NCBI GenBank assembly: GCA_905221605.1
Contig: CAJNDS010002716.1
Location: forward strand, 62,001 to 126,000
Length of the DNA stretch: 64,000 bases
Source of the DNA: Symbiodinium natans
Lineage: Eukaryota > Sar > Dinophyceae > Suessiales > Symbiodiniaceae
Reading direction: 5' to 3'
How positions within the stretch are numbered: the first letter of the stretch is position 1; the number at the start of each line of letters is the position of its first letter. Shown piece by piece: positions 5,106 to 55,295 of this stretch. The notes beneath the pieces are model-generated. The model was given only the letters and a program-made list of their open reading frames with translations. It was not told the origin of the DNA and ran no database searches. The position numbers and the translations under genes are program-made.

Positions 5106-7379
5106 TGGTTACCTCCGCATACCTCCCGCGGAATAGTCGGGATGCAGATGTTGGGGGGCCCACATGAGCCGATGAGGCCTTGGATGCTTGAGCCGGCGGA
5201 TTAAGAATCGACTCGGGCAGCCGTGGAGGTGAAGTGACCTTGAGCACGCAACAGACACCAGCTACGTGCGTACGAATGTGCAGGCCTGGCGGTGACCATG
5301 CGCGATTGAAGTTGCGCGCGCAGGCCAGGCTATAGCTTCAGCTTCTTCACCCGTCACGTGCTCACAGAAGATGCCGCAAAACATCGCAAAGCGAGCATGC
5401 AGGATGTCGTTGGTCGTGCGGGATTCCTTCGAAATTTGCAATGGCCATTGGGATTATTGGGTGGTCGACAGAAGCGGCTTACCTGAACCAAGTTCGTTTG
5501 AAATGGATGCTTGTGTTTGGCAGGAAATGCACACCAAGCCCAAAACCCGAGCACACGCCTGGCCGTGCGAAGGCGTGGGAACCAGACGGCTACATTGGAG
5601 AAGGCCGATTGTGATGCTTTGCATGTGCCAGATTCTACCTGTGCATCTCGTTGACCGCATTTCAGGATTTTGATGGCGACACGTCGCCGGAAGAGGCAAC
5701 CGGGGTTGGCTCATGTTGGCTCCAGCTTTTTGTGGTGCAGAGGTTGGATGCGCAAGAAGCAGCTCGAAGAGTCATTGTTTCATCCATTGCAGTGTTCCAA
5801 TGGGGGCTTCGTGCTTTCGAGTTTACCTGCATCTGGGATGTGTGGTTTCATCAGTAAGAGGTGCCAGTTAAACATTTTCTGTTGTCTGGATATCGGTTAT
5901 GTGGCTTGGAAACCACAGCAAGAGATAACAAATCAGAACAGAGCCTGAGTTGAACCCAAGACGGCTAGAGAAACACCGGCTCTCCAACATGTGTGTGTGT
6001 GGGTGGGAAAACGACTTCGACTTCACAACAGACCAAGGGACAACTACACAAACAATGCACCTAATGGATCTGATGAAGGCATATGCTCATTGCCATTGTG
6101 CTGATGCCAGGAGCTAGCTCGGCTTACCAACCCGCAGCAGAATGTCGCCATATTGGGTACGCGGGATTGCACCTACAACCACCAACAGGCCATCAAGCGA
6201 TGTTATGTTGTGCCACCATGCCGCATTGCCCATGCATTCCGTAGTATTCCGTTCACGAGCAAGCCAGATGTGAGAATGAATTGAGAATGTGAAGAGAAAA
6301 CCACAGCAAGCTTGTGCGCTTCGAGGAGATCGAGGCGCTCACCCAGGCGGACGGGAATCGCCCTTCTTCTGCGGCTTGTGCAGCGGACACTTGTACCTTT
6401 GAAAAGTGGAACCATGCCTTGGTTTCCACTGAGTCCTTAATCCTTTGTGGTTCATGGCTGAAGTTTGTCGGTGTGGAAAGTTGCTGCACCTCCCGTAGCC
6501 TAGCTCAGTGCTGAAACGCCATCTTCTGTACACGTCCATCTGCCTTAGCGTCGGCCGTTAGCGGTAGTTCTTGTACCATTTTGTTTTACGTGCTGCTGAT
6601 TTTGCTCCGCGTCGCAATGTCAGCATGTGTTTTTTTCACCGCAGACTTCGAGACTTTCTGGTTGTTGGTGAAAAAGAACTCCGCCTTTGTGTGAGCCCTG
6701 CCAGGGAGGCCATTGCCCGTGGGGGAAATCTGGACTCCACTCATGCCTTCTGCCCTTGCTCAGCCTGCTGGTCTACACCAGCAGGATATGAGCCCAACGT
6801 GTGACTACGGCACCGCCATGTTGCAATCACCCCGGCCCACCTCTAGAAAGGGATGGTTTGCCGTGACAGTGGGCATTGCACCGAGTGCCTCGAGTGCCTG
6901 GGGAAGGGCATCAGTGGGCATACACATGCATACACCGACATGAGGGGTGTACAGCCTCAGGAAAAATTCCACAAGTCTACCGCCAGTGAGGGTTTGTGGG
7001 CAAACTTGCAATCAATTCCACTTCTACATCCTTGGGATCCTTGCTTGTGGCAGTGACGAAGAACCTGGTGATGCGCCTGATGCTCGTTCAGCACCTGGAT
7101 CTTGGGATTGACACACCTTATTAATGTAGGCATGAAGGAAAACACGAGCGTTATCCGGACCAGGCCTTCACAGGGGCTCAAGGTGTGATGAGTGCTGCGG
7201 ATGGACTGGTCTCTGCGGCGGTTAGTAACATTAAGACTCAGCCCCAGATCAACAGAAACCCCTTATTAAGATGTAATTGCATGTGTGAACGAAAAAGAGG
7301 AAGTGACTACAAACCCGTGTGTGAGCGAATTTCCAGCCCTTTTGACCGCTCTCTCCCCCCAACCTCTGTTCCAAAGTGA
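5106..7379. other. No gene recognised
   Basis: Open frames exist, for example 5371-5673 and 6571-6804 on +, but none shows a family motif or a convincing splice context on either strand. Confidence 0.4.
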
Positions 7380-26987: not shown

Positions 26988-29212
26988 GCCGAGCTGGACA
27001 TTTCCTTCCGTGAGCACTTCGACACCCTGATCTCCAAGCTGAGAGCTGCCGTGACCTCAGCATCCTCAGTTTCACCTCTACTCATTCTGCGCATTCCGCT
27101 AGCTTTCAGAGAGCTTCAAGAAAGTGCTCCTGTCTCCTCCGAAGGAATTGCTGCATCACTACGACAGAGATGTGGCATCGCGACCAGAACCGGAGTCTGA
27201 GAATCAGGTGGACACTGAGGCGTCTTATTCTTCAAGGTTTTCACTCATGCAGAGCTACACGTCTGTAAGATGAATTTCTTGCCCTGTGGAGGTAGTTCAG
27301 ATCGTGCAGGTCATGCCGGGCATGTCGGCCTCCAAGGGCAACGGCTCAGATGGCTCCGACTCAGAGCAGATGGAGGCCGGAGCCCTTCCCAGAGAGACTG
27401 CGAAGTTATGAAGGAAAGCAATGTGACTGCACGAAGCACGGATCGCTTTGTAAATTCAGCACAAGTGGAGTTAGCCCGCTCGAGCGGGTGTGGTTGTTGG
27501 GGGCGAGGGGTGGGCATTCCGTAACGCTCCAAGGCCACGCCTTGGACACTTTTTCACGCAAACGGCAGCTTTGGCTGACAAGCGGCGCCGTTTGTAGAAA
27601 TGGCGTCGTTTGCGCAGCAATGCACACGCTTTCTCGACAATGCGCACGTTTTTCCTCGACAAAGCGCACGGTCGAAACACAAAAGGGGTTGACGGCGTCG
27701 CTGGTAGAAACGGCGCGCACAGGACACCTTTGGCGCAAAGGTCATCTTTGAAGCCTTACGGTTCCCGCCAATGTGTGTGCACCTGGCCACCTAGGACGGG
27801 GGGTGGTGGTGGATCAGAATCCGCCCGGGTTTGAAAAACTTCGATGAAATTTGGATATGTCGGAAAAGACGAGGGAAGCTTCTATAGCAGCTAGGACTGT
27901 ACTTGATATATTAACTCGTGCACAGATGCCCCGCTGGAATATTTGCAGTTAAAGTAAGACTGTATCGTAAAGCAAGCAGGCTGGAAGATCGGAGGCAAAG
28001 TACGACCCCACCCTGAACACTTAGAAAATATGTGACAAGCATTCTGCATACTCTTACGCAAATGCCATGTGCAATTCGAGGATCCGGCAGGGGATGGGCC
28101 CTAGTTGCAGCTCAGATCCGTGACCATGACATGCAGTTCACTCTTCATTCTTTCTTCTCTTTCTGCCTTTGCCCTCTCGCCTTCTCTGTTCATCTGGTCC
28201 GAACTCCTCTTCTGTTATTTGTCTTTCTCTCTCTGCTTCTAGATGCGCAGTTGCCAGTTGCAAAAATCTCTAGAATATATTGTGTATTCATATTATATAT
28301 ATATATATATACATTATACATTGAATGTTAGACGGATCTTGTAGGACCTGAGGAACACCATTCTCGGATGATCCCGTGGCCATGATCGGAAAGAAGTTCC
28401 CTTGTTGAAAGTGTGTTTTGTGTCTGTGTATGTATGTCTGTATGTATGTATGTCTGTATGTCTATCTGTATGTCTGTATGTATGTATGTATGCATGTATG
28501 TAAGGTATGTAATGCAATGTAATGCAATGTAATGCAATGTAATGCAATGTAATGGAATGGAATGTAATGTATGTAATGTATGTAATGTATGTAATGTATG
28601 TAATGTATGTAATGTATGTAATGTATGTAATGTATGTAATGTATGTAATATATGTAATGTATGTAATGTATGTAATGTATGTAATGTATGTAATGTATGT
28701 GATGCACTGCAGTGCAATGTAATGTACTGTATTGTATTTTATTGTATGCATGTATGTATGTTCTGCATCTTTTCGTGCTTGGCCGAAAGCCATGGACTTG
28801 TCAGAAAACAATCACAGAATTGCCAGGAGCCCCAAATCCAAAGTCTACACCAATCCGGCCTGGAAACCGGACCTCCGCCGCAGCCGGAATCGTGTCACAG
28901 CGCTCCAAGACCGCTCGTGGTACCAATGCACGACAGCTCCGATGAGTCGGAGGACGAGGTGCCCACCTGGATGATAGCATGTGGCAGTGTAGTGCTTGTT
29001 CTGCTTGTTCTTCTCTTGGAGGTGGGTATAGGATGTGATGCATGTAGCTCTCATTGCAGTAGTTTTCGCTGACGCGAGTGCCGCTATCAGTCTGCTGTCG
29101 GCCCTCGGTTCAGGTGTCTGAATCCAGCCTGGGTGACGGAGAGCTTAAAACACCGAAAAAGAAGACGCTACCGGTGAACCCTTGTCGCCCAGAGCTTCCG
29201 GATCTTCCACAG
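26988..29212 (+). CDS. Copy A, N-terminal cytoplasmic exons
   Basis: Exon 26988-27047 reads [20 protein letters not shown]. 27112-27207 contains [18 protein letters not shown]. 27301-27399 is Gly/Ser/Asp-rich ([18 protein letters not shown]). 28818-28958 ends [10 protein letters not shown]. 29114-29212 contains [13 protein letters not shown]. Four of these align with copy B exons at 34416, 34591, 35242 and 35559 (SFGVHFDQLIARVRS, EELLQHYERD, DSSSSDED, MELKTPKARF). That is what identifies them as real exons despite low complexity. Confidence 0.65.
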
Positions 29213-32200
29213 GTGCGACTATGCACTTCCAAAATGCTCAGAGCTTCCTGCTTGTTGCCTGCAAGGAGGACGCAATAGCTGCCCCGAAAGCTACACCAAA
29301 GATGCTTCTGGTGTCGCAGGCACGTTTCCTTGTACATCAGTTGCGCACTCTGCCAGGTAGAGCGACAATGAAATCACCAGAAGTGCTGCAATGAGCTTGC
29401 CCAACTCTGCACACAAGATAGAGCAACCAAGTGATAAGTAACTATTGCTCATTGTGCGGCTTGTTGGTCTTGGTGTGAGGTGGCTCCAAGCTCCATGGAG
29501 CATCTGCCATTGCCAAACACCTTGGAGACCCAGGCTGACAGGTTTTGCAGCCTAGGTTCAGCGATTCAAAATGTATCGAAGTCGTTGAAAGACTTGCAGA
29601 GAAGTGAAGTTTGAAGTGTGTGGATACGTGTCTGCTTTCTCGTCCACAGCCGCCTTGAAGGATAGCGCACGCATGGAGACTTTGCGCGTGCAGGCCGTCG
29701 CGTCACAGGACTGCCGGGCTTTGCAAGTCTTCTGTCGCCAATGCTGGTTGTCACTGTTTGATTGATCGTCAGGGCCACAGACCCTCAGTGAATTCTGCAA
29801 TGAATTCATCGAGACGTGGCAACCCGACCGACTCCGAGTCCAGCTTCGAATCAAGCAGCGCCGCTGGGATTAAACTTCATGAAACTCATACCTTCGAGTT
29901 TCTCCAATTCCAAGTTGAGTAATGATGCAGGCATCGGAGAGCATGACGGGCGTTGTTTTGTGATCCTGCACTCAGGATGACGAGGACGGCCTGTACCCAG
30001 ATGGCCACACACCGTCAAACAGCTTCTGTGCCTGCAGCAGATTCGGGGAAAGGGGTGGCGTTGTTGTTCGCTGCAAGCAAAGCGATGACAGCCGGGGAGC
30101 TGCGCAGTTTTTCTCGCCGGCAGGGGGAACCCAAGGGCTTGGTTCAACTGATTCAGCGTGCGGGTACAGGCGTACGCCAACAACAAGTCTGAAGGAACTT
30201 GCCCTGAAAAGCTTTGAACCGCTTCAGTGCGAGATCTCAAGAGCACGGGCCACCTCTCTGTCAGCTGTGGTCAAGGGCTCTTGCAGCAGAATTTGCCTTA
30301 GTCAGCCCGGTTTCCCATCGGGCCAGGAGAGCTAATTCAGCTAATGACGTTGCCACCAGATGTAGATGCCTGTTGACTACCTTGTTCAAGGTCGATTGAC
30401 CAAGAAGCGAATTAGCAATGCCTCCATGGCCGATTTCTTCAAACGGGAGCCCGCTGTTTCTCGAGTGTGGCTCTTCCTGGAGGTTGCCGAGCTGGCTATT
30501 AGCTACTATTTGCCAGTTTGCTGCAGGGGGGGTTGGTGCAGTCGAGAGGTTAGCTGGTAGTTGCAGTGATGTGGCACGTTCGACATCGATGGGGCTGTTT
30601 TGATAGTGCGCAGGCTTCTGGAGTTGTATCGATATACTTGTGTCTTCGGGGTGCTCTTCTTTTGGCGCAGAACAATGTGAGATGATGTGAGCATGAGGAT
30701 CCCGACTCCAGCCGAGCGGCATATTGGTTTGCCACACTGAGCAACCAGTTCATCTGCTTGAGCATCATTTTCACAATTTGGCAAGCGTCGGATCATCCAC
30801 CCTTTTCCGCATTGGCGGAGGGCGTTATACAGATAGCTGTTGAGGTGCTGGGCTCAGACATTACCAGGGGGCACAGTTTTGATAGTCCGTAAAAGCAGCA
30901 GCAGCGGCAGCAGCGCCAGCAGTGCACTCTGTCTTTGTCGTGTTTTGTCGTGCTGCAGGTACTGTTGTAGTAGATACAGGCCCTGTAGGACCAACAGGCA
31001 TCACTTTACAAGCTACGGTACAAGAAGGCAGGTGGTGCACAGATTCCGGGATGCCATCCTGTCTGCATGTGTCTTCTCATGTCGCTGCAGTTGTATCTGA
31101 CAGCCTGTTGAACTGCATCATCTTTCATAGCCGTTCTAGCTGTTGCTAGGTGCTGCTGTTGCTGGAGTTCACCACTCGATGGATTGCGTCGTCTGGACCG
31201 AAAAGAGCACCTTGGCCGAGCTCAACATGTCTCACAAACACGGTATTTGTGGCGAAGTCGACAGTTTCTTCTCTAGGAAATAAACGCCAGAGAGTCCACC
31301 CATGCTTCCAATCTCTTCCGCGTTGACTCCTCCACTTTCAGGATGTCATGAAGAATCCGTACAACGTGATCGATATTGCGGCATTTGTTCCAACCATAGT
31401 TCGGCTCGCTGTTGGTGTTGAGACCCCTTCGGCGGCCGAGAACCCACCAGCGCACTATCTCTTGGTCTGCTTTGTTCCGGTGGTGCGGCAGCTCAAGCTT
31501 ATTCGTCGCTTTCAGAAATTGCAGCTGCTGCTGCACCTTGGTCGCAGGGAGCGCGAGGAAGGCAAACTGTGACTTCTTTGTAAGGTTCGTAGGCCCGAGC
31601 CTGCCGAGCCTTCCGTGAATGATGACCCGACCAGTTGCTTCGAAGGCATGTACTGACTACTGTCATCGACGCGCTGAAGCTGCTACTGTTCATGGTTTGC
31701 TTGATTGCGGCTTGGACCTGCAAAAGCTACAAGTGCGGTGATCACTTGCGGGAACTTTTTCTTAGCTCAAGGCGTCACATCGGGAGTACGTTCGTTTGGC
31801 TTGCGTCCGGTCTCTGCTTGAGCTCCAAACGTACGAAACCGATATCGCATGCCTGTCGAGCATCCTCTTCTATGCTGGAGGTTCCAGTGGAAACCTTGTG
31901 TTCGCTCCCGTTTTCCGTTCTCAGGGAAGGCTACAAAGGAAGCCTTGGAGCCAAGTCTATGTCTACATGTATCTACATGTACTGTAACTGTACATCATGT
32001 ATCACATCCAGGAATTGAAACTTACTTGCTTCTGTCGCTCAGCCACCAAGAATTCGTGTGAAGTGTTGACCGCCACATGCGCCAGCAGTGGAGCAGCACA
32101 CGGCTACAACAGCCAAGGTCCTTTTCTTTGCTGCGGTGCTCTACATCGTGGAACCACAAACTGCCATAGACACGCTTCCAACTTCGATATGGCTGTGCAT

Positions 32201-33195
32201 TGTGACTGTTACGACTGTCGGTTACGGTGCTCCGCTCAGCCTGCTTTCTTTGCACGGTTCCACATGGCTGCCCTCTGGGACCACGATACTAAAAAGGAGA
32301 GTGCCTCACCTGGTTTGTCCAAATAATTGGATGAGTGAGCGATGAGATCGCTGAGGAGACGTGGCGCCCTCAACTTGGCCCGGGCGCATTGTGGCTGGAA
32401 CCCTTTGCTTCATTAGTGTCCTCTTCATGGCTATGCCACTTTCGGAGACTTGGCATTCATGGTGACACGACCTGTAGATCCTGCAGTCGGCACGCACATC
32501 CCGGATACAAGCAGCATGCGTTGAACACGGCGCATTTCATGATGCGATTCTGAGGTTCTAGGAAACGCGATGTCCCAAACATGGGCAGATCGACATCGCA
32601 TCCTCCTCATGACACGCACTCGGTCTCGCCTGAAGAACCTGGGCTACTCCGCACGTTGCCGACTCAGCTTGACTGATGAAGTCAAAACGCATGTCCGTGC
32701 GGGATCGCTGTCGGCCTGCGCACCAAGATGACATGCCCAAGCTCTTCAAGAAGTTCGACACAGATAATAACGGCGAACTGGAGCTAGAGGAGTTCTGTGC
32801 TACGCGACAGCAAGAGCTTGCGAACCTCAGTGCGGTGTGTAGCTCTGTGTACTGCATGCACAGGATCATCCAGCGAGCTTCCTAACAAGTCAGCACGCAG
32901 CTTCGGATTCTTCGGATTGTGGCATTCTTTGGCTCTGAGATGCTCTGAGGACCTGGTCGCCAAAATGAAGGTTGGTGTCAAGCCGCATGAGGCAGATTCT
33001 CGTCGGGACGGCACTTGGTTTCCAAATGTTTCCAATCAGTGTCAATCGGTGTGGCGTCAGGCGTCCGAGCTCTTCATGGCATTTGACGATGATGGAAATG
33101 GAGGGATCGATGAAAGAGAATTCATGAAGGCACTTTTCCCACTGGACTATCGGCGGATGTACAGGCGAGCCTCTGGTATGACATTCGGGGCATAA
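26988..33195 (+). CDS. Voltage-gated K+ channel with two EF-hands, copy A (15 exons, start not fixed)
   Basis: The inferred product of about 550 residues is a plasma- or organelle-membrane K+ channel gated by voltage and probably Ca2+. Exons: 26988-27047, 27112-27207, 27301-27399, 28818-28958, 29114-29212, 30391-30482, 30698-30844, 31150-31206, 31342-31532, 31646-31706, 32118-32226, 32356-32444, 32555-32654, 32728-32798, 32950-33195. Phases close from 30391 to the stop. The N-terminus is Ser/Asp/Glu-rich. S1-S3 lie in the exons at 30698-31342, S4 carries repeated Arg/Lys ([14 protein letters not shown]), the pore has TVTTVGYG, and S6 has [12 protein letters not shown]-terminal loops [12 protein letters not shown] and [12 protein letters not shown] are canonical EF-hands. 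The exon after 29212 must be incomplete in my model, because 30391 needs a phase-1 donor; 29977 may start it. Donors are GT, GC or GA. Copy B follows about 1.2 kb downstream on the same strand. Confidence 0.8.
28425..28745. repeat. Compound GTAT / AATGC / 9-bp AATGTATGT microsatellite
   Basis: (TATG)n with TCTG variants at 28425-28500, (TAATGCAATG)n to about 28558, then about 15 units of the 9-mer AATGTATGT to 28700. It lies inside an intron of channel copy A. Confidence 0.95.
30391..31706 (+). CDS. Copy A, voltage-sensor exons (pre-S1 to first half of S5)
   Basis: Pre-S1: [16 protein letters not shown] (donor GT at 30483). S1: [19 protein letters not shown], exon 30698-30844. S2: [16 protein letters not shown], 31150-31206. 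S3-S4: [20 protein letters not shown] and the charged [14 protein letters not shown], 31342-31532. S5 first half: [17 protein letters not shown], 31646-31706. Charged residues every third position in S4 mark a voltage sensor. The last three exons here use GC donors. Confidence 0.8.
32118..33195 (+). CDS. Copy A, pore, S6 and EF-hand exons
   Basis: 32118-32226: [13 protein letters not shown], then [15 protein letters not shown]; the K+ selectivity filter is interrupted by a phase-1 intron within the last Gly codon. 32356-32444: [20 protein letters not shown], then VLFMAMPLS, ended by a GA donor. 32555-32654: [16 protein letters not shown], a post-S6 linker. 32728-32798: first EF loop, ended by a GC donor inside the F helix. 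32950-33195: [12 protein letters not shown], the second EF loop, and the tail ending GMTFGA then TAA. Confidence 0.85.
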
Positions 33196-34415
33196 GGCGC
33201 CCGGAAGATTAATGCCTTAGACCCTGACATGTTTCACCCTTGCATGTTTCCACGTGTGCAAATTTAAAAGATTACGTCGCGATGGAAATCGCAGCATGAG
33301 TTGCGAGCACTATCGAGCACTGTTCATTGGTGTCAGACTTGTTGAACTAAGCGTATCTGGAGATCCATGCAGTTGGTTCTACCACTTGCCTCAATTGCCT
33401 TCACACGGTCGCAACCTCGACAACTTTCTGCAATCACCCGAAAGAACCCGCAGTGCCGAGGCAGGCTCGCTTACATCGTAGCGGCGGTACACATTCTCTG
33501 CAATCGTTTGCTGAAGGCAACGACTTGCGGAAGCTGCTTGCTCTATGCGCTGCCTTATCTTTCAAAGTACCTTCGAGAGCATATTGCCAGAAAGCTACAG
33601 CACGCTGAGCAAGTACTTTTTTTGGTTGGCCTTCTGCCTTGGCAAAACTGCCAAGGGTAGTTTCGTCGAATCACAAGGCTGGAGGCGCCAACTAGGCAAA
33701 TGACTCAAATAACCCGCTTGCCAGCAAGCTGCTCCGGCGGTGTGCTATCCCGATTATGCAGTTTAGATTTATGACGATGGGCCTGTCATACTATCGCGCC
33801 TCCCGACTTCAGCGCGGATACACGAATGCTGAAGGAAGCTCACATTCTTCCAGGCACAGCGGATTGCATCTATGCTTGCGCTGACCTGTACATAACGGTT
33901 GGTCGCCCGAGACAGCTCAGGCCGAACGTGTTATTGAAGGCTTTCAGTGCCCGTTGTTGCTGCACGTGAACTACTTCAGTGACCGAATATCTGAACCTAG
34001 TGCACGCTGCTGTCTATCACAAGTGCCATGTTGTCCAGTCCTTCGTACACGCTGCGGGCTTTGTGGTTTAAGTGCCTGTGCCTCTGTGGCCCCCCATGGG
34101 ACCCCATGGCTCCCTCAAACTCGCCCAATCCTCAGAGTTTCGTCCGCTCATGGTCTTGACATGACTTGACACCGTGAGCCTCTGCAAAAGATCCGCGAAC
34201 GGGCTTGCGAAAGGAAACTAAGTTTTCTTAAAGTTTTGATTCTGACGAAAGTCTAACTTGCCGGCTCAAGAAATCCGATTCTTGGAGGTAAATGTAGCCC
34301 AAGACTGGCGAAGAAAGTCCTGCGCAAAGTCTAAGGTAAAGTCTAACGTATCGTGGCCAAGCCCTTCTTTGGATTGGAACCCCATTTTCATGCCAAAGCC
34401 GTTCAGCACGATGAG
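33196..34415. other. Intergenic spacer between the two channel copies
   Basis: No exon recognised. The first exon(s) and any spliced-leader acceptor of copy B should lie here but cannot be picked. Confidence 0.4.
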
Positions 34416-35669
34416 GTTGACATGAATGACTCGTTCGGCGTTCACTTCGATCAGTTAATCGCTCGGGTCAGATCTGCTTCTCGCCTTGATTTACTGTGTG
34501 TGGTGTTTGTAGCAGCGACTGCCGTCGCTGCATGGTCCTGGTGTCCTAGCGACGTTTAGAAGTTTGACGATTCTAGAACTGTCCCAGCAGACGAGCTCGC
34601 TACATGTCGTGGCCCTTTTTGAGGAGCTCCTCCAGCACTACGAAAGGGATATCCAGGTCAAGGCTGACAGCCAGAGTTTCATCCCTGTCAGGGACGAGGC
34701 GGCCCTGAGCATCAGTCAGGGATGTTTGCCACGTCCGAATAAATTCAACGACGCTCTGGAAGTACTTTGGAACCGTTCATCTTTCTCCGACACTGAAGAA
34801 GAAGGCATAAGGGAATGACCATTGGGACTACTGTTGCAGTGTTTGCTGATGTGTGCCGGCTGCGCAGTGCAGCCTTCAAAGTAGGGTTGCCATTGGGCAC
34901 TACTTGTGGCATCGTCGGGTGCTAACGTGATGGTCCTGTTTGGAAGATAATGGGACCACCATTCGCAGAATTTACCAGATCAGGATGTCGAATTAGATGC
35001 ATGGTTGCAGGGGGTCTGCCTAATTTGGTAAGAACTTGCAGCACCCAACTCTTGCTCTGTAGGTGTTGCCACCCATCAGTGCGAAGCCACAATTCCTGCG
35101 TTTGTCTCCGAAGAAGCAATGGAATTCCTCCGAGTGGGGGCCTGCTTCTTGAAATGCAAAACTTCAATGAGCAGTTGCAGTCCGAACAGGGCGTGAGGTT
35201 GGAGCTGCAACCATGCAACTGGAGCAGCCTCTTTAACTAAGGTGTCTTCCCCTCTCAGCAACTTCAGGCAAAGCCCTGTGTTCTCGAAAGGGGATTCTTC
35301 ATCCAGTGATGAGGATGCGTCTTGGCTGCGACGCTGCTGTGCTTTCAAGCTCTGCTTCCAGCCTAGACTAACCAGCTCGATGTCGCGATAAGAGACAAAA
35401 ACCTTCAGGAACCACATGGGAAAATCGGAGTCGTTCATCACCGACTGACTTCCAAGTCAGCCGTGTCCGATGGCTCCCAGGTCTCTCACAGCTCCGCCAT
35501 GGTGTTGTCCCTCTTGCACTTTGCATTTTTTGTCGTGCTTTGCCGGTAGGCGACGCAGCCGTCGGCAGATTCCCCGAACATGGAGCTCAAGACACCAAAA
35601 GCTCGGTTTCCCCAGCTGGAAGCACAGCTGCCGCGGCCGCCTTCGGAAGCAACTGCGTTGGCAACTTCA
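34416..35669 (+). CDS. Copy B, N-terminal cytoplasmic exons
   Basis: 34416-34475 reads VDMNDSFGVHFDQLIARVRS (GC donor). 34591-34686 contains LFEELLQHYERDIQVKA. 35242-35316 ends DSSSSDED (GC donor; copy A has GT here). 35559-35669 contains NMELKTPKARFPQLEAQLP and ends at TCA/GTAAGA. The first two exons match copy A exactly in length. Confidence 0.65.
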
Positions 35670-38600
35670 GTAAGAGCGTTCTGAGCTGGTGTTGGTCGCT
35701 GGGAGTGCTTATCCTAAGCTTCAATCGAGTTGACGGCGGTATGTTTTGTCCCTCTTCAGTCTTTAGTCTTTAGAATCTTTAGAACATGTTAGAACTTTAA
35801 CAGTGGCTTGGTTCCACTCAGGGAGAAGCAGATGCGCCGCCTGTGTCTCCGCAGCTGCTCTTGACTACGAGCGTGGGCACCCCAGACACGGCAGATGTTG
35901 CCTTGCGGGTCCCGCGTTGTTGTTCCTAGGTGTGGTGTGGCGGGGGCCTTCTATTTCCTAAGTGTTTCGGCCTGCTTGGTCCCGGCGGTTCCTTGCTCCC
36001 CTTGTCCTGCCGTTAAATGCCACGTTTTCTATTGAGCTCGGTTGTCCTTGTCCTTGTCCAACAGTGTCACATAAGAACCCCTTCAAAGACAGTGAACAGC
36101 CCTTCTGTCTTGCGTTCGCTTCCTCATTGACTTTCCTGCTCACTTGGGACGGGCCTACAGGCTAGTGATGCGATTATACGGACACGCATGCATATAAGTT
36201 GAAGCCCGTATTACTTCATATTCATACTAGCCCGTAGCAGGAAGTGGTGGCTGTGTTATGCCCTTCTGCAGGCCCTGGCATTGTCAGCACTTCAGGCAGG
36301 AGTGTGGCCCTATGGGCATCCGAGGCCGAGCATCCTGGACCTTCTGATGCCCCATCCCCGTCTGCTTCCGATTCCCGTCGCGTTCCGGGCACACCGCCTG
36401 AAGCCGACCGCCGTTCTGTTTTCGACAACGTGTTGCCCGCGAGTCTGGCTCAGTCAGCTGCCTCTGTCCAGTGCCTGACTGTGGGCAAGGGGACGTTTCC
36501 AAGGGCGACCGGGTGGACTTCACACATCACACTGCCATGCGGCCGCACCTCAACGACCACAGTGCCGGCACGCTCGTTGCCGGACGCCTCTGTGCGGCGT
36601 TAAGTCGCACGAAGGGGCCGACCCTTCCCAGCCGTCCCTAGACGAGATCGTCTCAACCTTCATCCCCAGCTTGCGCCCCGCCCGAGCCACTAAGCGACGC
36701 TGCCAGCGTTTGTTTGACGGCAGGAGGGGCGAACTATGGGATGAGCTCGACGGCACCCGCCGCTTTGCCTGCCGACGGCAAGTGCGGTGACCTTTGCCCA
36801 GCTCCCGCAAGTGCCCCTGGCGCCCGGCAGCCGTCAAGCGCGCTTCGGCCCCAGTCCCGAGGGGCTCGCGTCCCGACCACCTGCGCTCGTCCAGGTTGCG
36901 CAGACGCGAATGGAGCAGGATCTCTCTGCCCATGTCGACAAGGCTCCTTCGTCCTCGCTGCCGGATGCCGCCCTGTGTGCACCTCCACCTCCTGCGGCAG
37001 TTTGGTGCGGGGTCTTGGCTCCATAACCACGAGGCACTCGGGCTGCATGTCGAGCCCCACCTTTTCCAGGTCCTCCTCCGGCTTCGTTTGCGTCTGCCGT
37101 TGCTTCCTGCCGTTGCTTCCTCCGACGGTTTTGCCATGTCTGCGACGGCGCCGCGGCCACGACCGCGACCGCGACCGCGACCGCGACCGCGACCGCGACC
37201 GCGACCGCGACCGCGACCGCGACCGCGACCGCGACCGCGACCGCGACGACGACGACGACGACGACGACGACAAACAAATTTGACTTTGTCTTTTACTGGG
37301 CCATGTCAGGGCAGAATCAGTTTCAATTGTTTTTTGGGGGGAAATGGGGGGTGGACACTGAAGAGGGTGCAACTTGATTCGGGGCGCCCAGGGCCTACTC
37401 CAAGGTGCTCTGACTCAAAGTTGTTCGCGTTTGTCAAGAATTTGGTTTGAAGTTTGCATTCCAACAGGGGTGCCATCTTTCATAGGCGCTGTATGTAGTG
37501 GAATCGTTGGAACTCGTAGTTCAATTCGTTTCAAGCAAAAACACAAAACTGAAGGCATTCTTGCACGAAACGCTTGTTGCCCAAAGGGGAACTAAGGTCG
37601 GGACACCCAACCAATTTCAAGCCAATGTGAGAAGCTGGTCTTGTGCCCATTTGATACTGTCAGTTCAGAATATAGAAAGGGCGAAAAACACTGTTTCTAT
37701 ACTGTGAGATCGGAGAAACAATGTACTTTACCCTGAGTACAGCGCTAGCACATCAACGGGAAACCGCTTGCCTCCATGCTGGGCTTCGACAGTTCATGTG
37801 CAATGCCCAGATATCCAGGGTCTTCGCCGCATGTTTTTGTTTGCACGGTTGGGAAGTCTGGGGAAGCTTTAGCAAATCTTGCTTTGCAGGGTGGTCTTTG
37901 CCCGATGCTGCCAAATAATCCTGAGGCCTGGTGCAAAGCTGTGCGAAGATTTGCGCAAATGTTGTGAACACGAATACTTGGCATACACGACAAGCAACGA
38001 CCCTAACGTCATGCACAGGAGGCTGACGGCTGCCTGGGCGAGACAGGTGTTGACCTTCAGGCACAATCTTCAGTAATCTTCAGTAGCTCACGAACGACAG
38101 GAAGACTTGAACGATGCGCAGGATCAGAAGGGCAACCAAATCGCCGACAAGAGCTCTGCGAAGAGCTCAGCGTCATCAAGCAGCAGCAGCTCAAGCTCGA
38201 GCTCTGCCAGCTTCACCAGCACGACCGACAACAACGATGCTTGGCCAATAATTTGCAACTTGTAGATTATGACACTAACGTCTGAATTCGTGGCTTTCTG
38301 TGCGGTTTGGCTTTGCACGGTTCGAGTTGCACTGCTCAACTTACAAGCTCAGGCTTCTGGGAATGAAGGTCAAGGAAGCCACCTGTCTGCAAAAGCTTCT
38401 AAGGTGCAAGGTGAGGCAAGGTGCCAGGAGGGCTGTCAAAGGAGCAAGTGTGGCGTTAGTGTGGCGTTACTCCAAGGCAGGAAAGTGATGAAGCGTGCGA
38501 GCGAAAGCTCCATTCCATCTTTCTTTGACAAAGAAGCCGCCTCCAGTCTGCTGTGGCAGTTTTTGGAGGAGCTTGGCCCACGGCTTCTTTATTTTTATGA

Positions 38601-41600
38601 GGGTTCCTGCTTTTCTTTCTGCCCAGATCTGGGCTCGGTTATGGCACCAGTGTCTGCTTTTGACAGGTCGGGGCCAGGGCCCAGGGTAGTTCCTTTCGTC
38701 GCAGGACCCTGATTCGAGTCCAGCGGCCTTCTATTTTGCCACAGCTTGGAACTACTTCATCACACTCTCCATTGTGGTGACCATTCTTCAGGGTAGCCAA
38801 AGCCCAATCATTCCTGCCAGTACGGAAGGCTTTCTCCAGGTCTCCGTGGAGGCTCCGCTACCCGGAAGAGGGTTTAGGGTTTAGGGGTTTAGGGGTTTAG
38901 GGGTTTGGGGGTTTGGGGGTTTGGGGGTTTGGGGGTTTGGGGGTTTGGGGGTTTGGGGGTTTAGGGTTTAGGGCCTGTTGATGCAACCCTTGCCAAAGGC
39001 AAGAAGGCCCTGCTTTCAGGTGTTGCCGGCAGCCTCCTCAGTCCGTGCCTAAAACGAGTTTAGGGTTTAGGGTTTGGTCTATATGGAGGAAGAGGGGGCC
39101 GATTCATGGGAAGTGTTGAGACCCATCGCAACATGAAGTCTTGACAGAAAAACCTGCAGCGCTGAGTGCTGGCAGCTCTCTTTCGTCGCAATGTCCTCAA
39201 TGTTACTGCAAAGGAAGGCCGTGTTTTGACTGCATAAGAAAACGAAGCTCAAGCCTTCGAAACTGCTCAGGCCGAGCGCGCTATAGAGCCGAAGCCGTGC
39301 CTAGATTCTGAGATTGACTCAACCACAGAGTCAGAGATCTTTCCGCTGAGATAGCCTTTTGTGGCCTCACTTTTTTTGAATCTGAAGAATCCCGGTCTGG
39401 CTTAGAGTCTGAAGTACAAAGCAAGTCTAGAGTCTACATGCATAAAGTGTTGTGCGTGTGGTGTTCACAGCCACACTTTCACTACTGCCACCTTAGTACT
39501 AGTATAGTCAGAGTGTCACCGGAGAATGTAGTGGTGACGTTTCAGCAGAGGCGAAGCTCTCATTTTCAAATTTCAAGTTTCAAGCATAACGCTTTTCGCA
39601 GGTGGCCCTTGCGCTTGAGTTCCTCGCGCATATTTATGCCAGCACCAGCTGCTATGCTTGGACCCCGGCACGGCTTAGGTGGGTTCAGGCTTGGAGTTTA
39701 TAAGGTTGACATGCTTGCTTTCTATCATGCATTCGCAGTTCTTTTTCAACGGGGTTTGGGAGGAGCGTTCTCTTTTTGTAAGGCGTTCGTCAAGAGTCCG
39801 TATAACATCATTGACTTCTGCGCGCTGCTGCCATTGGTGATACGAATCATCGCCGGTGTTGAAACGCCCACGCTGGCAGAGAACGCAGTGGTGCACTACA
39901 CGCTCGTATGCTTCGTTCCGCTTATCCGCCTGCTGAAGTTGGTCCGGCGATTTAAGAAACTACAGCTGCTTCTGCCTCATGGCCAAGCCAGCAGAAACTG
40001 CTTGCCTTTTTGCTGTTGTGGCGGTGCTGCTTGCCGTTTTCCACCAACATCCCCACCGGCTAAGGCATGTTCTGTCTTCGGTAATTGATGCTTTGAAGCT
40101 CCTGCTTTTCCTCATCAGTATCATTGCAGCTTGGATGATCTGTGAACGTGTGAGGGCCCGGTGCGGGTGCGGTGGCTTGCATTCCAAAGCTGTGCTGTAC
40201 TGGAGGTGCTAATCTTTGCCACAGCCCTGTACATCACGGACCAGCCGGATAACATTGATTCACTGCCGTTGGCCATCTGGATGTGCACAGTCACCGTGAC
40301 CACTGTGGGCTATGGCCCCATCCTTGGCTGGGCCATGAGACGGCGCCCATCAGACAGCTCTCATTCAGGTTCATGTTCATAGTGCCTGTGGAACAACTGA
40401 GGTGACGTGACTCCATCGACGTGGCCAGCAAGAGGTGTTGCGGGCATTCTTTGCTTCATCAGCGTGTTGTTCATGGCGATGCCGATTTCCGTGCTCAGCT
40501 CAAATTTTTTGTTGCAGCATGATTCCTTGTTCCAACTCGAGCGCCAATGGACACCAAAGCGTGCCCAACATGAAAGGTTGCACGAACCCCAGTTTTGATT
40601 GGCTGAGGTGGTGGGAAACGCAATGTCACAGACATGGGCAGATCGGAACAGAATACTTCTTGTGACAAGAGCTCGACAGCGCTTAAAGAATTGGGGCGTC
40701 TCTGCCAGTTTCTTGGCCAAGTTGGTAGCTCAATGTAGCTCGTCAAACCTTGGCTTGAGGACTAGCCGCGTCGAGTGATCCCTCTCTGTAATGTTAACTC
40801 TTGGAATCTGCTTTCATATGTTTTATATGGCTCCTGGCAGTTTCGATTGACTCGGGCGCGCGGCATGGCTCGAGCCGATTTGTGCAGACCCACCGCCCGG
40901 ATGCCAGCGGCACAGTGAAGCAAACCACACCTGTTGTCGCTTTGGGGCAAAAGCTCCAAATCCACACCGGTTCAGGCACAATTGTAATTTCCTCGTTAAT
41001 GTATTTGGACTGTTTTTTTTCTTATGCTGTACGCTTTTTTTCTTATTCTCTCTGTGCCCCAGAAGCTGTTCCAAGCTCTTATGCTCCACCTCTTTTCGAA
41101 TCGTTCAGTTATGCTACCGTTTCTGTCGTTATTCTTGACGTTTTTTTATTCTGCTGACCTGACTTTTTCTTATGCTCCCCAGTCCTCCCGTTATTCTCCT
41201 CCCTCCCTTCTCCCCCCCGCTTCCCCCCCTCCACGTCCCCTCCTCCCCTCCTTCTCGCTCCTCTCCTCCTCCTTCCTCCTCCCCCACCACCTTTCCCATT
41301 CTTATCCAACAGTCCCACCAATACCCACTCACCGACCATTGCTCGCTATCCTACTGTCCACCCGCCATGCAACATCATCATGTCCCACATTTCCCACCGA
41401 TATTGCCGCCAGTCTTCGCCATCCCTACCATCACATTTCTCGACGTTCCTACATTTCCACAACTCCCACCAATACCCGTTACCCAGCATTCCTTTCTTTC
41501 CTGCCACTATCAGTCACTATCAGCTACTCTCTACCCCCACAAGTGCCCAGTACCCACCAACCCAACCAGTACACCCCACTGTTACCCATTGCCCACCAGT

Positions 41601-44396
41601 GCAGACCACTCACCCGCCATTTAGCCTAAACCCTATAAACCCTGTTTAAACTCAAATCCCCCGAGACTGCCCAGGCTCCGCCGTTATTCACTGCCAGTCC
41701 CAACCTTACCCATCACTACTCACCATCCTACCCACCATGACCCACCATGCAACACCCTACCCATCCACCATGCAACACCATACGCATCGCACCATGACCA
41801 ATAATTCCCACCATTTCCCACCAAGATTCTGCCAGTCGGACCGTTTCCCACCATTCGCCACCCCCACCATCACACACCACTACCCAGGATTCTCACCCTT
41901 CCCACCATTAATTATACTCGAAATGCCAACCATTTCCACAACTCCCATAAGCATCCGCCCATTCACAGCCAAGTCAACCAAGCCATGTTTTCCATTAATA
42001 TATCTCCCTGCAGGCCCAACGAATTGGGGGAGGGGGGGTGGTGCTGCCCTCAACCCGCAACCTTCCGGGAACGTTTGCATCAAGCATCAGCCCAGCCACA
42101 GCCGACCCAACCAAGCCATGCTTTGAGCAAGACTTTGGAACCCAACAAAGCGCTCGGTAAGGCGTGGTGTCCGCAATGCAAAAACACCAAGCCAAAACAC
42201 CTTTGTCATGCCGGCGTGCTTGCATCAGCCATCAATCCCAGCCAACCCTACCAAGCCGCGCTTTTGTATTAACATGTCCCTCTGGCTGCTTGAACCCAAC
42301 CGCCCTTGATGAGGTGCAAAGGGGGCGAGGAGTGCATGCGCCCGCCCAAACTCCCCACTCTATGACAAAGCTGAGGCCCAAACCAGGCCCAAGCCAAACC
42401 AAATTTTACAAGCCGGGCTCGATTGCACAATCATCAGGCTTTTGCTTTGGGGACGTCCTCAAAGACCACCCCACCCTGAAACCACACACACACAACTCAA
42501 AGACAAGCCTACCCTGTACCTGAAACCCTACGGTATGGGTTCAGGTATAGGTCCTTATGCCCGGAGCTCCTAAAGCCCTACAGGTTGTTATGCAGGGGCC
42601 CAAGGTAGGCCCCCCACACAGAATTCCAAGCATAACAGGAGAAAGTGGGCAGCATAAAAAGAAGCACCTTCAGCTTAAGAAAAAACACCCTCAGCATAAC
42701 AGGGGCCGGCAGGGCATCGGTGCAGCATAAAATAGACATCGCGAAGGCAAGCAGCATAAGAAAAAGCGGGGTCAGCATAAGGAAAAAAATTCCTTTGGTT
42801 TTAGGAGTTGTTCACGCATAGTCAGGAAGAATGACTTCAGTGAAGAACGACTCCACAAAAGCATTTTGTAGAAATGTGACTTGCTCTGGGAGCATATTTG
42901 ACGTCCTCCTGCTCCGAGTCCGAGTATCATTCCGAGGCCGTCAAGGCCAGGATGCCAGGGCCCTCGTTCCTGGTGATTGCACCGACCGAACTGCCTGAGA
43001 GGCCTCAGGAGGCCGAGGGTGGAGTTGCGGAACCCAGAGCCCGTGGCGATCGGTCGCCTGTACTCTGGGATCCAGTTGAAGCCCAGCTGCCCTGCTCGAA
43101 GAAGCACCAACAAATCGCCTCGGCCGCAAACTGCGTACTGCGTGGTCGCGGCCAACAAAGAAGGACCCCCCCGCACCCAGGCTCCACGGCGTCCACAGGA
43201 ACGGGCCGTGGCGCAGACAGCAACCGCTGGTCCGTTTGCATCCCATGAACCACGGGCCTAGGATTGCGACAGGCCAGGCGAAGATGAAGAGGAATACAAG
43301 GAAAAGCAGGCGGTGCAGCCGAGGCAGCTCGTGTCTACGGCGTGCCAAACACCCAGCCACCGCCGCCTGGTCCAGCCGAGGAGGCCAGGTCGGCGGTTCG
43401 CCTGGTGAGCCGGACACCAAAATGGCGGTCGGACGCTAAGTCACGGCTTCGTCTGCAGGACTACGTTTATGCACTAGCCAGCTAGAAATCCCAAGGGGGC
43501 ACCGGAGCCTCAAGCACCATCGATCTCGGTGTCTTTTTTCGGTACAGCGCACAAGAAATTCCCTGTGACGGTACTGGTCTGGTGTGCTGTTGGGCACGTG
43601 GAAATGGCGTGTGAACACGCTGCCTGGGAGTCCCGAGGCAGTGGCCTATCTTTTAGCATATTGTTATCGCGGGCTCTTTTTATGGAATTTGTCGTCCGGC
43701 CACCGCTTCTGATTACAGGCTCGGTTTGAAGTCTTTTGCTTTCAAATTTCCGTATCTCACCCATGAAGTCAGGTATGCCATTTACGCCACCACCAGGCCT
43801 ACCCATGGCCAAGTCTAAGCAGACCGCAACAGTATGTTCGCAGAGACGATGGCAAAACGAACGTTGAAACTCAAAGAACAGCATTTGGGATCTCTGATCA
43901 CGACCTTTTGGAGTTTAAAGGTGAAGCTTCATACATGGTCTTGTTCACCTGGTATACTGAGGTGATATGCCCAGGCTTTTCAAGAAGTTTGACCAAGATG
44001 GCAATGGTGAGCTTGGTATGGATGAGTTTTGTGATGCTTGTGCAGCATACATTCAAGGATACATAGCGCTGATTGTCTTGACCCAATGTGTTGCTGGGAT
44101 CAGAGCTGTCACGACAGCTTTGAGTCTGGAGCCTCCGTTGGCCCGAGGACTTGATTGCAAGGATGAAAGTTGGGATGAAGCCTTCAGAGGTCGGTTGCAA
44201 GTCCAAAGTGAGTGCAGAGCTTGTGGCCATGTGTCGCCCATTGGGCGCTTTTGAGCGGGAGGCATCTGACCTCTTTGTGGCCTTCGATACGGACGGCTCT
44301 GGAGGGATCGACGAAAGAGAATTCATGAAGGCACTCTTCCCATTGGACTATCGCAGAATGTACAGACGAGCTTCTGGCATGACTTTCGGGGCTTGA
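34416..44396 (+). CDS. Voltage-gated K+ channel with two EF-hands, copy B (14 exons, start not fixed)
   Basis: Paralogue of the channel ending at 33195. Exons: 34416-34475, 34591-34686, 35242-35316, 35559-35669, 38477-38568, 38705-38851, 39602-39655, 39783-39973, 40065-40125, 40206-40314, 40402-40490, 40608-40707, 43962-44032, 44148-44396. From 38477 all phases close to the stop. All exon lengths from 38477 match copy A, except S2 (54 against 57 bp) and the last exon (249 against 246 bp). Motifs: S1 AFYFATAWNYFITLSIVVTI, S4 LIRLLKLVRRFKKLQLLL, filter TVTTVGYG, S6 [15 protein letters not shown] loops DQDGNGELGMDE and DTDGSGGIDERE. No stop or frameshift is seen, so both copies look functional. 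Introns are larger than in copy A (2.8 and 3.3 kb) and hold transposon-like inserts. An exon between 35669 and 38477 is missing from the model; 38122 may start it. Confidence 0.8.
36240..37095 (+). mobile_element. LINE-like retroelement fragment, N-terminal zinc-finger region
   Basis: GC-rich plus-strand remnant in an intron of channel copy B. One frame reads CLCPVPDCGQGD, then RVDFTHHTAMRPHLNDHSAG: a C-x4-C ... H-type finger followed by the MRPHLxDHxAGxL signature I know from the N-terminus of dinoflagellate LINE-like ORFs. A second frame from about 36635 reads SLDEIVSTFIPSLRPARA and RCQRLFDGRRGELWDEL, also typical of these ORFs. The frames are broken by stops, so this is a dead 5' part. It runs into a (GACCGC)n array at 37158. 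Confidence 0.55.
37158..37270. repeat. (GACCGC)n then (GAC)n microsatellite
   Basis: About 15 hexanucleotide units GACCGC followed by nine GAC triplets, ending the GC-rich LINE-like block. The Arg/Asp or Arg/Pro repeats in its ORFs are artefacts. Confidence 0.95.
38477..40125 (+). CDS. Copy B, voltage-sensor exons
   Basis: 38477-38568: pre-S1 with SIPSFFDKEAASSLLWQFLE, ended by a GA donor where copy A has GT. 38705-38851: S1, GC donor where copy A has GT. 39602-39655: S2, VALALEFLAHIYAST. 39783-39973: S3-S4, SPYNIIDFCALLPLVIRIIA. 40065-40125: [17 protein letters not shown]. The last three introns start with GC in both copies. Confidence 0.8.
38869..38973. repeat. Interstitial telomere-like repeat, TTTAGGG / TTTGGGGG
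   Basis: About 13 units of GTTTAGGG(G) grading into GTTTGGGGG and back. It starts 18 bases after the S1 exon donor of channel copy B, inside the intron. Two more TTTAGGG units lie at 39059-39073. Being intronic, it is not a chromosome end. Confidence 0.9.
40206..44396 (+). CDS. Copy B, pore, S6 and EF-hand exons
   Basis: 40206-40314: VLIFATALYITDQ and the filter; GC donor inside the last Gly codon where copy A has GT. 40402-40490: DVTPSTWPARGVAGILCFIS, GT donor where copy A has GA. 40608-40707: [16 protein letters not shown]. 43962-44032: EF loop 1, ended by a GA donor where copy A has GC. 44148-44396: the second EF loop and a 31-residue tail identical in protein to copy A. Confidence 0.85.
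41021..42780. mobile_element. Element bounded by inverted arrays of TTATGCT
   Basis: The left flank carries TTATGCT or TTATTCT at 41022, 41043, 41079, 41109, 41129, 41146, 41170 and 41191. The right flank carries the complement AGCATAA (one AGCTTAA) at 42629, 42651, 42672, 42693, 42724, 42753 and 42774. Spacing is 17-36 bp on both sides. The core is C-rich, with CACCAT-type repeats (41700-41830) and a triplicated unit of about 135 bp. No transposase-like ORF is seen, and it sits in the last large intron of channel copy B. Arrays of a short motif in opposite orientation resemble subterminal transposase-binding sites, so a non-autonomous DNA transposon is my best guess. Precise ends and target-site duplication are not evident. 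Confidence 0.6.
41965..42305. repeat. About 135-bp tandem repeat, three diverged copies
   Basis: CAGCC-x-(A/C)CC(A/T)ACCAAGCC(A/G)(T/C)G(C/T)TTT recurs near 41969, 42103 and 42243. The second and third are preceded by GCATCA(A/G)(G/C)CATCA(G/A)(C/T)CC. It lies within the TTATGCT-bounded element. Confidence 0.65.
42898..43440. other. GC-rich block, coding status unclear
   Basis: Several frames on both strands are open, with sense-like composition. It lies in the last large intron of channel copy B and is probably another retroelement remnant, but no motif decides it. Confidence 0.3.
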
Positions 44397-54274: not shown

Positions 54275-55295
54275 GGGTGCAGGGTTTAGGGCTTTTTAGA
54301 GTGTAGGTCTTGGGACGTTTTGGGGCGGTTTCAGGGTTCAGGGTTGTTTCGGTTTAGGGCTCAGGTTTGTTTTGGGTTGAGAGCTTGGGGATTTAGGGTT
54401 TGTTAGAATTTAGGGTTTTGGGATTTTTTAGGATTTAGGGTTTTTGTAGGGTTTTTTCGGGGGTTTAGAGTTTAGGGGTTTTTCGGGTTTAGGGTTTTTT
54501 TTGGTTTAGGCCTCAGGGTTTTTTAGGCTTTAGGGGGTTTTCGGATTTAGGGTTTAGAGTTTAGGGGCTTTTAGGGTTCGGGGGCTTCAGTGTTTAGGGG
54601 TTTTGGGGCTTAGGGATGTTTTGGGGTTTGTAAGTTTGGGATTTTTATCCCCCCTTCCATTTGCAAACGCAATGAGAGTGAGGGGGGGGGGGTTTGGGGG
54701 GCGGTTGGGGGGCGGTGGGGCGGTGGGGTTGGGGGGCGGTTGGGGGGCGGTTGGGGGGTGGTTGGGGGGCGGTTGGGGGGCGGTTGGGGGGCGGTTGGGG
54801 GGCGGTTGGGGGGCGGTTGGGGGGCGGTTGGGGGGCGGTTGGGGGGCGGTTGTCGGGGTATGTCGGGGTTTGAGTTTTTAGGGTTTAGGGTTTTTGGGGT
54901 TTAGGGCTCAGGGGGGCTTTTAGGGTTTAGGGGTTTGTAGGGTTTAGGGTTTTTTTAGGGTTTAGGGTTTAGGGATGTTTAGCGCCAGGTTTTTAGGGTT
55001 TAGGGTTCAGGGGTTTTGAGGGTTTAGGGTTTTTACGGTTTAGAGTCTTTTTCAGGGTTTAGACTATTAGAGTTTAGGGGTTTTTAGGGTTTAGGGTTTA
55101 GTTTTTTTTTGGGTTTTTGGAATTTTGGGTTTTTAGGGCTTAGGCTTAGGTTTTTTTCAGGGTTTAGGGTTCAGTTTTTTTGGGTTGAGGGTTCAGGGGT
55201 TTTTAGGGTTTAGGGTTAAGGGATTTTTTAGCGGTTTAGGGCTTGGGATTTTAGGGTTTTGGGGTTTAGGGGCTTTTTAGGACCTGCAGTAGCAG
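54275..55295. repeat. Degenerate TTTAGGG telomere-like field with G-rich minisatellite
   Basis: More than 60 GTTTAGGG-like units, irregularly spaced and mutated (GGGTTT, TTTAGG, TTCAGGG), all with the G-rich sequence on the + strand. The core at 54700-54860 is a GGTTGGGGGGC minisatellite of about 12 copies. It lies between genes, so it is interstitial. Confidence 0.9.

Follow-up and report, generated by a model that had tools for sequence, protein, structure and literature searches.

Donor switching between GT, GC and GA at homologous introns of two tandem potassium-channel genes of Symbiodinium natans, with a probable origin in introner insertion

Introners of Symbiodinium microadriaticum, in the parts of Gozashti et al. 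2022 drawn on here (PMC9860276), have terminal inverted repeats and a 3' splice site borne by the element itself, and are flanked by a 4-bp target-site duplication (TSD) that, according to the legend of Figure 2B, supplies the 5' splice site. Seeding of donors by a TSD is therefore not a new mechanism. Introner elements of Amoebophrya contain internal inverted repeats, with short direct repeats across exon/intron borders, in the portion of PMC7789003 used here. For S. natans, Table 2 of PMC10666404 gives genome-wide donor shares of 23.6% GT, 58% GC and 18.4% GA, with AGG in 97.1%. The cited section of PMC5177918 names GC, GT and GA as the predominant donors in S. microadriaticum, and a weak 5' signal is remarked on in the cited part of PMC4083563.

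The system described here concerns the family of channel genes to which the tandem copies A and B belong, in a genome other than that of S. microadriaticum. It resembles the S. microadriaticum introners as there described in the 4-base TSDs seen at paralogue introns and in one repeat family, and in the terminal repeats of that family; relative to that part of PMC9860276, it adds a comparison of later donor change among paralogues and a depletion of G at the second exon base. Donor set and AG|G border are those given for Symbiodiniaceae genome-wide in the sources above, so that each donor of A and B is ordinary for these algae, and what is added is limited to how donors behave from one copy to the other at homologous introns. 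In contrast to the non-canonical Amoebophrya introns without clear splice signature mentioned in the same portion of PMC7789003, +1 is G in all 30 introns counted here. If the reading given below is correct, the GC/GA donor oddity of coral-symbiont algae would be tied to intron origin at single-base resolution, in one gene family. Mendez 2015 is said to have found repeated intron boundaries with short direct repeats in a dinoflagellate tandem gene array; that array would resemble the present locus in having a gene in tandem copies and introns bordered by short direct repeats, and the study may already contain part of the present result.

Two tandem channel genes and their paired introns

The window is the whole stretch of 64,000 nucleotides that was analysed; genome searches covered the assembly to which it belongs (759,417,921 bases, 2,543 contigs). 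A first-pass annotation made from the letters had rightly recognised a dinoflagellate setting and paired introns in two gene copies. Spliced alignment places the copies as follows:

26988..33195, + strand: copy A, EF-hand K+ channel (KCNB2-like); limits given are the first exon with homology and the stop codon, the real start being uncertain
34416..44396, + strand: copy B, tandem paralogue of A, by spliced alignment to P0007 (90% identity) and P0006

Copy A was delimited by spliced alignment to P0002-P0004, and Pfam was run on a provisional stitched A protein, on which PF00520 (Ion_trans), PF07885 and EF-hand families scored over the cut-off. The channel is classed as a voltage-gated K+ channel on the joint presence of a TVGYG filter, the Ion_trans domain and EF-hands; among solved structures, chains of K+ channel subfamily B member 1 match it best. 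Identity to KCNB2 of Symbiodinium pilosum is 88% for the A query, and the B query reaches 90% with P0007, whose source contig has 2,065 bases; some of the guide and orthologue proteins come from such short, transcript-like contigs. In the core, 241 of 362 residues are identical between A and B. An Rfam scan of the 64-kb window at gathering thresholds gave zero matches.

Junctions were called with our own spliced-alignment program, in which every donor dinucleotide is scored alike and only an AG acceptor is demanded. Guides were P0002, P0003 and P0004 on A, and P0006 and P0007 on B; runs on the core used P0001, P0003 and P0004 on A, and P0006 and P0007 on B. Fifteen intron positions are paired between the copies. 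Ten are firm core pairs, with junctions identical under every guide in all unrestricted runs; the five N-terminal pairs were matched by order and by shared motifs such as ELKTPK, and are less certain.

27048..27144, + strand: A intron, GC-AG, partner of B 34476; three guides
34476..34623, + strand: B intron, GC-AG, pairs with A 27048; one guide (P0007)
27220..27291, + strand: A intron, GC-AG, partner of B 34699; two of three guides; absent from the first-pass annotation
34699..35062, + strand: B intron, GC-AG, pairs with A 27220; one guide (P0007); likewise absent
28959..29113, + strand: A intron, GT-AG, partner of B 35481; two of the three guides agree
35481..35549, + strand: B intron, GT-AG, pairs with A 28959; one guide (P0007)
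29213..29265, + strand: A intron, GT-AG, partner of B 35649; three guides
35649..35821, + strand: B intron, GC-AG, pairs with A 29213; P0007 (P0006 gives 35653)
29320..29479, + strand: A intron, GC-AG, partner of B 35873; three guides
35873..37889, + strand: B intron, GT-AG, pairs with A 29320; both guides
30483..30697, + strand: A core intron FLE|DPD, GT-AG, pairs with B 38569
38569..38704, + strand: B core intron FLE|DPD, GA-AG, pairs with A 30483
30845..31149, + strand: A core intron VE|VLLL, GT-AG; GTGCTG opens both intron and next exon
38852..39601, + strand: B core intron VE|VALA, GC-AG, pairs with A 30845
31207..31341, + strand: A core intron S2-S3, GC-AG; CTTGG at +5
39656..39782, + strand: B core intron S2-S3, GC-AG, pairs with A 31207
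31533..31645, + strand: A core intron QLL|LHV, GC-AG, phase 2; CTTGG at +5
39974..40064, + strand: B core intron QLL|LHV, GC-AG, phase 2, pairs with A 31533
31707..32117, + strand: A core intron LI|VLFF, GC-AG; CTTGG at +5, ends CCAAG
40126..40205, + strand: B core intron II|VLIF, GC-AG; CTTGG at +5, pairs with A 31707
32227..32355, + strand: A core intron in the pore, GY|GDV, GT-AG, phase 1, pairs with B 40315
40315..40401, + strand: B core intron in the pore, GY|GDV, GC-AG, phase 1, pairs with A 32227
32445..32554, + strand: A core intron PLS|VLGN, GA-AG; CTTGG at +5, pairs with B 40491
40491..40607, + strand: B core intron PIS|VVGN, GT-AG, pairs with A 32445
32655..32727, + strand: A core intron SA|HDMP, GT-AG, phase 1; next exon begins with A
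40708..43961, + strand: B core intron SA|SDMP, GT-AG, phase 1, 3254 bases; CTTGG at +5
32799..32949, + strand: A core intron EFC|DLV, GC-AG, pairs with B 44033
44033..44147, + strand: B core intron EFC|DLI, GA-AG, pairs with A 32799
32992..33060, + strand: A core intron KPHE|ASEL, GC-AG, 69 bases, frame open; orthologues contiguous; absent from the first-pass annotation
44190..44261, + strand: B core intron KPSE|ASDL, GT-AG, 72 bases, frame open; orthologues contiguous; likewise absent

The last pair may have been missed earlier because of its open frame. Donors in the 30 kept introns are GC in 16, GT in 11 and GA in three; that is, +1 is G in all, and +2 is C in 16, T in 11, A in three and G in none. 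With AG|G acceptors in 29 of 30, the Symbiodiniaceae-type signature of G at +1, T, C or A at +2, and AG|G is seen in 30/30, 30/30 and 29/30 introns. Donors are unequal in eight of the 15 pairs (core 6/10, N-terminal 2/5), so the switching first described as six of 13 was real and slightly under-counted. The last nine donor pairs of that description were recovered in the same order and, of its first four, GC/GC, GT/GT and GT/GC stand, while the fourth, a GT/GT given without coordinates, was not recovered, the alignment showing GC/GT at 29320/35873. The GA-AG introns at A 32445, B 38569 and B 44033 all hold in the spliced protein alignment. Phase was said to be fixed, as it is in all 15 pairs; exon length, also said to be fixed, is equal in 10 of 11 core exons, the exception being the S2-S3 exon (57 vs 54).

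Guides disagree at some N-terminal sites. On A, P0004 gives 27178 for 27220 and 28956 for 28959; on B, the first three N-terminal sites are supported by P0007 alone and the fourth lies at 35653 by P0006, and the start of the first core exon varies by guide (38477 or 38460). Further N-terminal candidates were dropped before counting: on A, 26811 GC by a single guide, 27403 AA by two (P0004 differing), 29534 GC, 29709 GA or 29712 TG, 29860 GC or other by guide, and 30022 GC; on B, 35144 GC, 35311 GA, 37927 CC, 38236 GA or 38235 CG (GC at 38239 possible), and 38375 GA (GT alternative 38369). The dropped rows that lack an initial G (27403 AA, 37927 CC and some guide variants) lie in the poorly aligned linker.

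Several simple arrays were seen in the window. TTTAGGG-like telomere-type repeats occupy 38870-38973, within B intron 38852-39601, and again 54919-55281; an ATGTA-type array (28430-28758) lies in the long A gap 27403-28883, whose junctions are uncertain, and a GCGACC-type array (37142-37247) lies within B intron 35873-37889.

Donor memory between copies

The +2 position keeps no memory of homology between A and B, the two copies behaving about as independent draws: +2 is identical in seven of 15 pairs against 6.3 expected by permutation (p 0.46). In this it behaves like other intron-start positions, while most exon-flank positions are conserved between the copies. Four-fold sites are identical at 36 of 113 (32%; random 26%), dS by NG86 is 3.8 and hence saturated, and no A intron aligned with its B partner. 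The donors look independent now because the duplication happened long ago, and saturation together with unalignable partner introns means that memory loss can be read from the pair, not a drift rate. The locus had been proposed as a natural experiment on donor drift; this holds for the lost memory and fails for the rate.

Further paralogues of A and B are present in the same genome. Copy D (contig C2358) has seven introns comparable with both, at which +2 in A/B/D reads C/C/C (QLL|LHV), C/C/A (LI|VL), T/C/T (filter), A/T/T (S6), T/T/C (SA|DMP), C/A/C (EFC|D) and C/T/C (KP.E|AS); at six of the seven the donor is unlike in at least one copy. With P0005 and P0001 as guides, D gives the same junctions at each of the seven introns, and from 4237 on; P0017 concurs at six of the seven, and over D as a whole it differs at three places (4230, 5048, and 7006 for 7012). 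At S6, the D intron starts with GTGC, as does its next exon, and the B intron also starts with GTGC; the A intron starts with GAGA. A's GA at 32445 is therefore probably derived.

No fewer than four proteins in the databases (P0034, P0039, P0041 and P0042) run straight on into introns of this gene family, a warning that gene finders misread such genes. If these are genomic read-throughs, they also give orthologous donors. P0042, a relative of A, goes on with Ala at the S6 exon, which would be GC against GA here; P0041, a relative of B, goes on with Val there and with Asp past EF-hand 1, which would be GT and GA, both as in B. P0034 likewise has Asp past EF-hand 1, and P0039 has Ala at two sites.

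Paralogue introns, a repeat family and a probable origin of donors

Paralogues C and E carry introns at positions other than those of A and B, save SA|DMP in E; in the well-aligned part, C (L048) has zero intron positions in common with A and B, and its exons upstream of 4188, which vary by guide, were excluded from use. In E (L050, G000:C2208:42500-51500) a single exon spans S3 to past S6, where A and B have several. Three of five E introns (6306, 7426 and 7645) repeat exactly, at their start, the four bases that open the exon after them: GCTT, GTGA and GTTG. The borders of E6306 are those from guide P0019; P0024 gives 6310-6390.

In a set of 25 introns from C, D and E, the intron start matches the start of the next exon at +2 in 16 (9.9 expected), +3 in 17 (6.4) and +4 in 12 (6.0), and the agreement is gone at +5 (six, 6.0 expected) and +6 (three, 4.8); exact 4-base copies number five of 25 against 0.69 expected under shuffled pairing. 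The donor of the D S2-S3 intron depends on the guide (GA 3420 or GC 3423), and this row was left out of the 25-intron test and kept in the 56-intron terminal-repeat and exon +2 counts. The same duplication test on the A and B introns gave no significant result (+2 11/30 vs 8.8 expected; exact 4-base 1/30 vs 0.61). Direct repeats at the A/B junctions were also considered as TSDs and rejected, with a mean slide length of 2.53 against 2.51 shuffled (p 0.47), and terminal-repeat pairing or complementarity over the 56 introns was no better than shuffled.

The genome repeat search took two introns, E6306 and B 38569. The latter matched its own place only (one match), while E6306 is repetitive, with 912 candidate copies in the genome at a first look; 40 of these, own place included, were scored and all have at least 82% identity. 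Twenty of the 39 others were looked at. Both terminal repeats could be recognised in 18, on a criterion of three or fewer mismatches to CTTGGTAGCCCAG / CTGGGCTACCAAG. An exact duplication of 4 bases flanks six of these 18 clean copies (0.07 expected), none is flanked by one of 5 or longer, and an exact duplication is absent in the other 12. On sequence criteria such copies are genomic repeat copies and at most putative introns. As 4-base duplications flank copies of the family, the first four bases of E6306 are taken to be the duplicated target, its donor GN being the exon's GN.

A further regularity concerns the base past AG|G, which is G in two of 54 introns against 22.9% GG in A/B core coding sequence (P about 1e-4), though these rows are not independent, as A, B and D share positions. 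Removal of the ambiguous D row gives 2/53, and the contrast is weaker when coding sequence is restricted to an AGG context, where GG is 4/22. If GG is unspliceable, that would explain why exon +2 avoids G.

Taken together, we consider it likely that A and B contain spliceosomal introns of the kind usual in dinoflagellates, that these most likely derive from introners (MITE-like transposons), and that their donors were seeded by a TSD and then drifted. A MITE-like element would insert in coding sequence at a G and duplicate four target bases (GNNN); the duplicated GN would then serve as donor and the AG of the element's own 3' terminal repeat as acceptor, giving AG|GNNN. At birth the donor would thus repeat the two bases with which the downstream exon opens: GT, GC or GA according to the codon hit, with GG excluded. 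Later, +2 would hardly be read and would drift among T, C and A, with +1 G and AG|G remaining fixed. For A and B themselves an introner origin would rest on family resemblance and age; we infer that their introns began by insertion, that GG cannot be spliced and that +2 goes unread. Drift had earlier been offered as the only source of the donors; the paralogue introns suggest rather that a 4-base TSD sets the starting dinucleotide, so that unlike donors need no mutation from a GT ancestor. The seeding model predicts that in young introns the donor GN equals the downstream exon's GN, that exon +2 avoids G, and that orthologous donors decay neutrally.

That GT is ancestral, with GC and GA arising by mutation alone and without target-site copying, is unlikely. 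It would fit the non-significant duplication test in A and B, copies that are saturated, but leaves aside the tendency of C-E introns to open with copies of the next exon that stop at +4, the membership of E6306 in a family with 4-base duplications, and the depletion of G at exon +2. It should, however, be noted that the LI|VL exons start with GT, yet their donors in A, B and D are GC, GC and GA, unlike the expectation from duplication. Quite improbable is the proposal that GT, GC and GA are functionally distinct donors selected for regulation of both copies: GT donors may match CAG on the exon side slightly better than GC donors (mean 1.64 of 3 vs 0.88), but +2 identity between A and B stands at the permutation level and, with D added, six of seven introns have an unlike donor in some copy.

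Downstream motif and junction placement

CTTGG, first noticed by eye and then tested, lies exactly at +5 to +9 in six of 30 A/B donors (31207, 31533, 31707, 32445, 40126 and 40708) against 0.05 expected; these introns have bodies too diverged to align with those of their partners. An open 5-mer scan with one mismatch allowed placed TCTTG at +4 (10) and CTTGC at +5 (9) on top. C stands at +5 in 19 of 30 A/B donors (22% background) and in 23 of 25 in C-E, and in E6306 CTTGG is the terminal repeat. Donor choice might, tentatively and against the odds, depend on G+1 together with a C(+5)TTG(G) element further along the intron, in place of the GU and of U1 pairing, with a transposon terminal repeat retained as splicing signal; if true, such an element would free +2 to drift. 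Pairing of donors with U1 amounts to 4.6 of 12 bases vs 4.1 at random G sites, with a longest run of 1.97 vs 2.06. The U1 RNAs of the genome carry the standard 5' end (ACUUACCUG / AAACTTACCTGG) in 15 of 16 matches, 11 of them over the family cut-off; CTTGG was rejected as a U1-pairing site, as that end is, by eye, not complementary to it. Five U1 snRNA genes of equal score and standard 5' end (L002-L006) share one contig (G000:C479:105124-129305), three of their four spacings being about 3.8 kb.

That the donors are misplaced, the real junctions being GT-AG sites close by, is scarcely credible at the protein level: sliding would be possible at the open-frame introns (32992, 44190) and in CTG runs, and an in-frame GT lies 36 bases past A donor 32799, but models with GT donors only cost 48-81 residues of indels in five of five guide runs, and orthologues are contiguous at the listed junctions, 25 matching proteins, for example, going on with VLGN past the S6 exon. 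In the core guide runs GT+GC costs 5-10 residues, GT+GA 29-35 and GT+GC+GA 0-5, the last set scoring the same as the unrestricted model. A decoy set of GG+AA+CC donors costs 25-34, fewer than GT-only in all five runs, and it outscores GT-only in both B runs, so that free donor choice helps by itself; it remains 155 to 185 points under GT+GC+GA.

Elsewhere in the genome, distant channel relatives (29-32% identity) with uninterrupted frames of 414-686 codons lie beside intron-rich relatives (G000:C1112:104324-118770).
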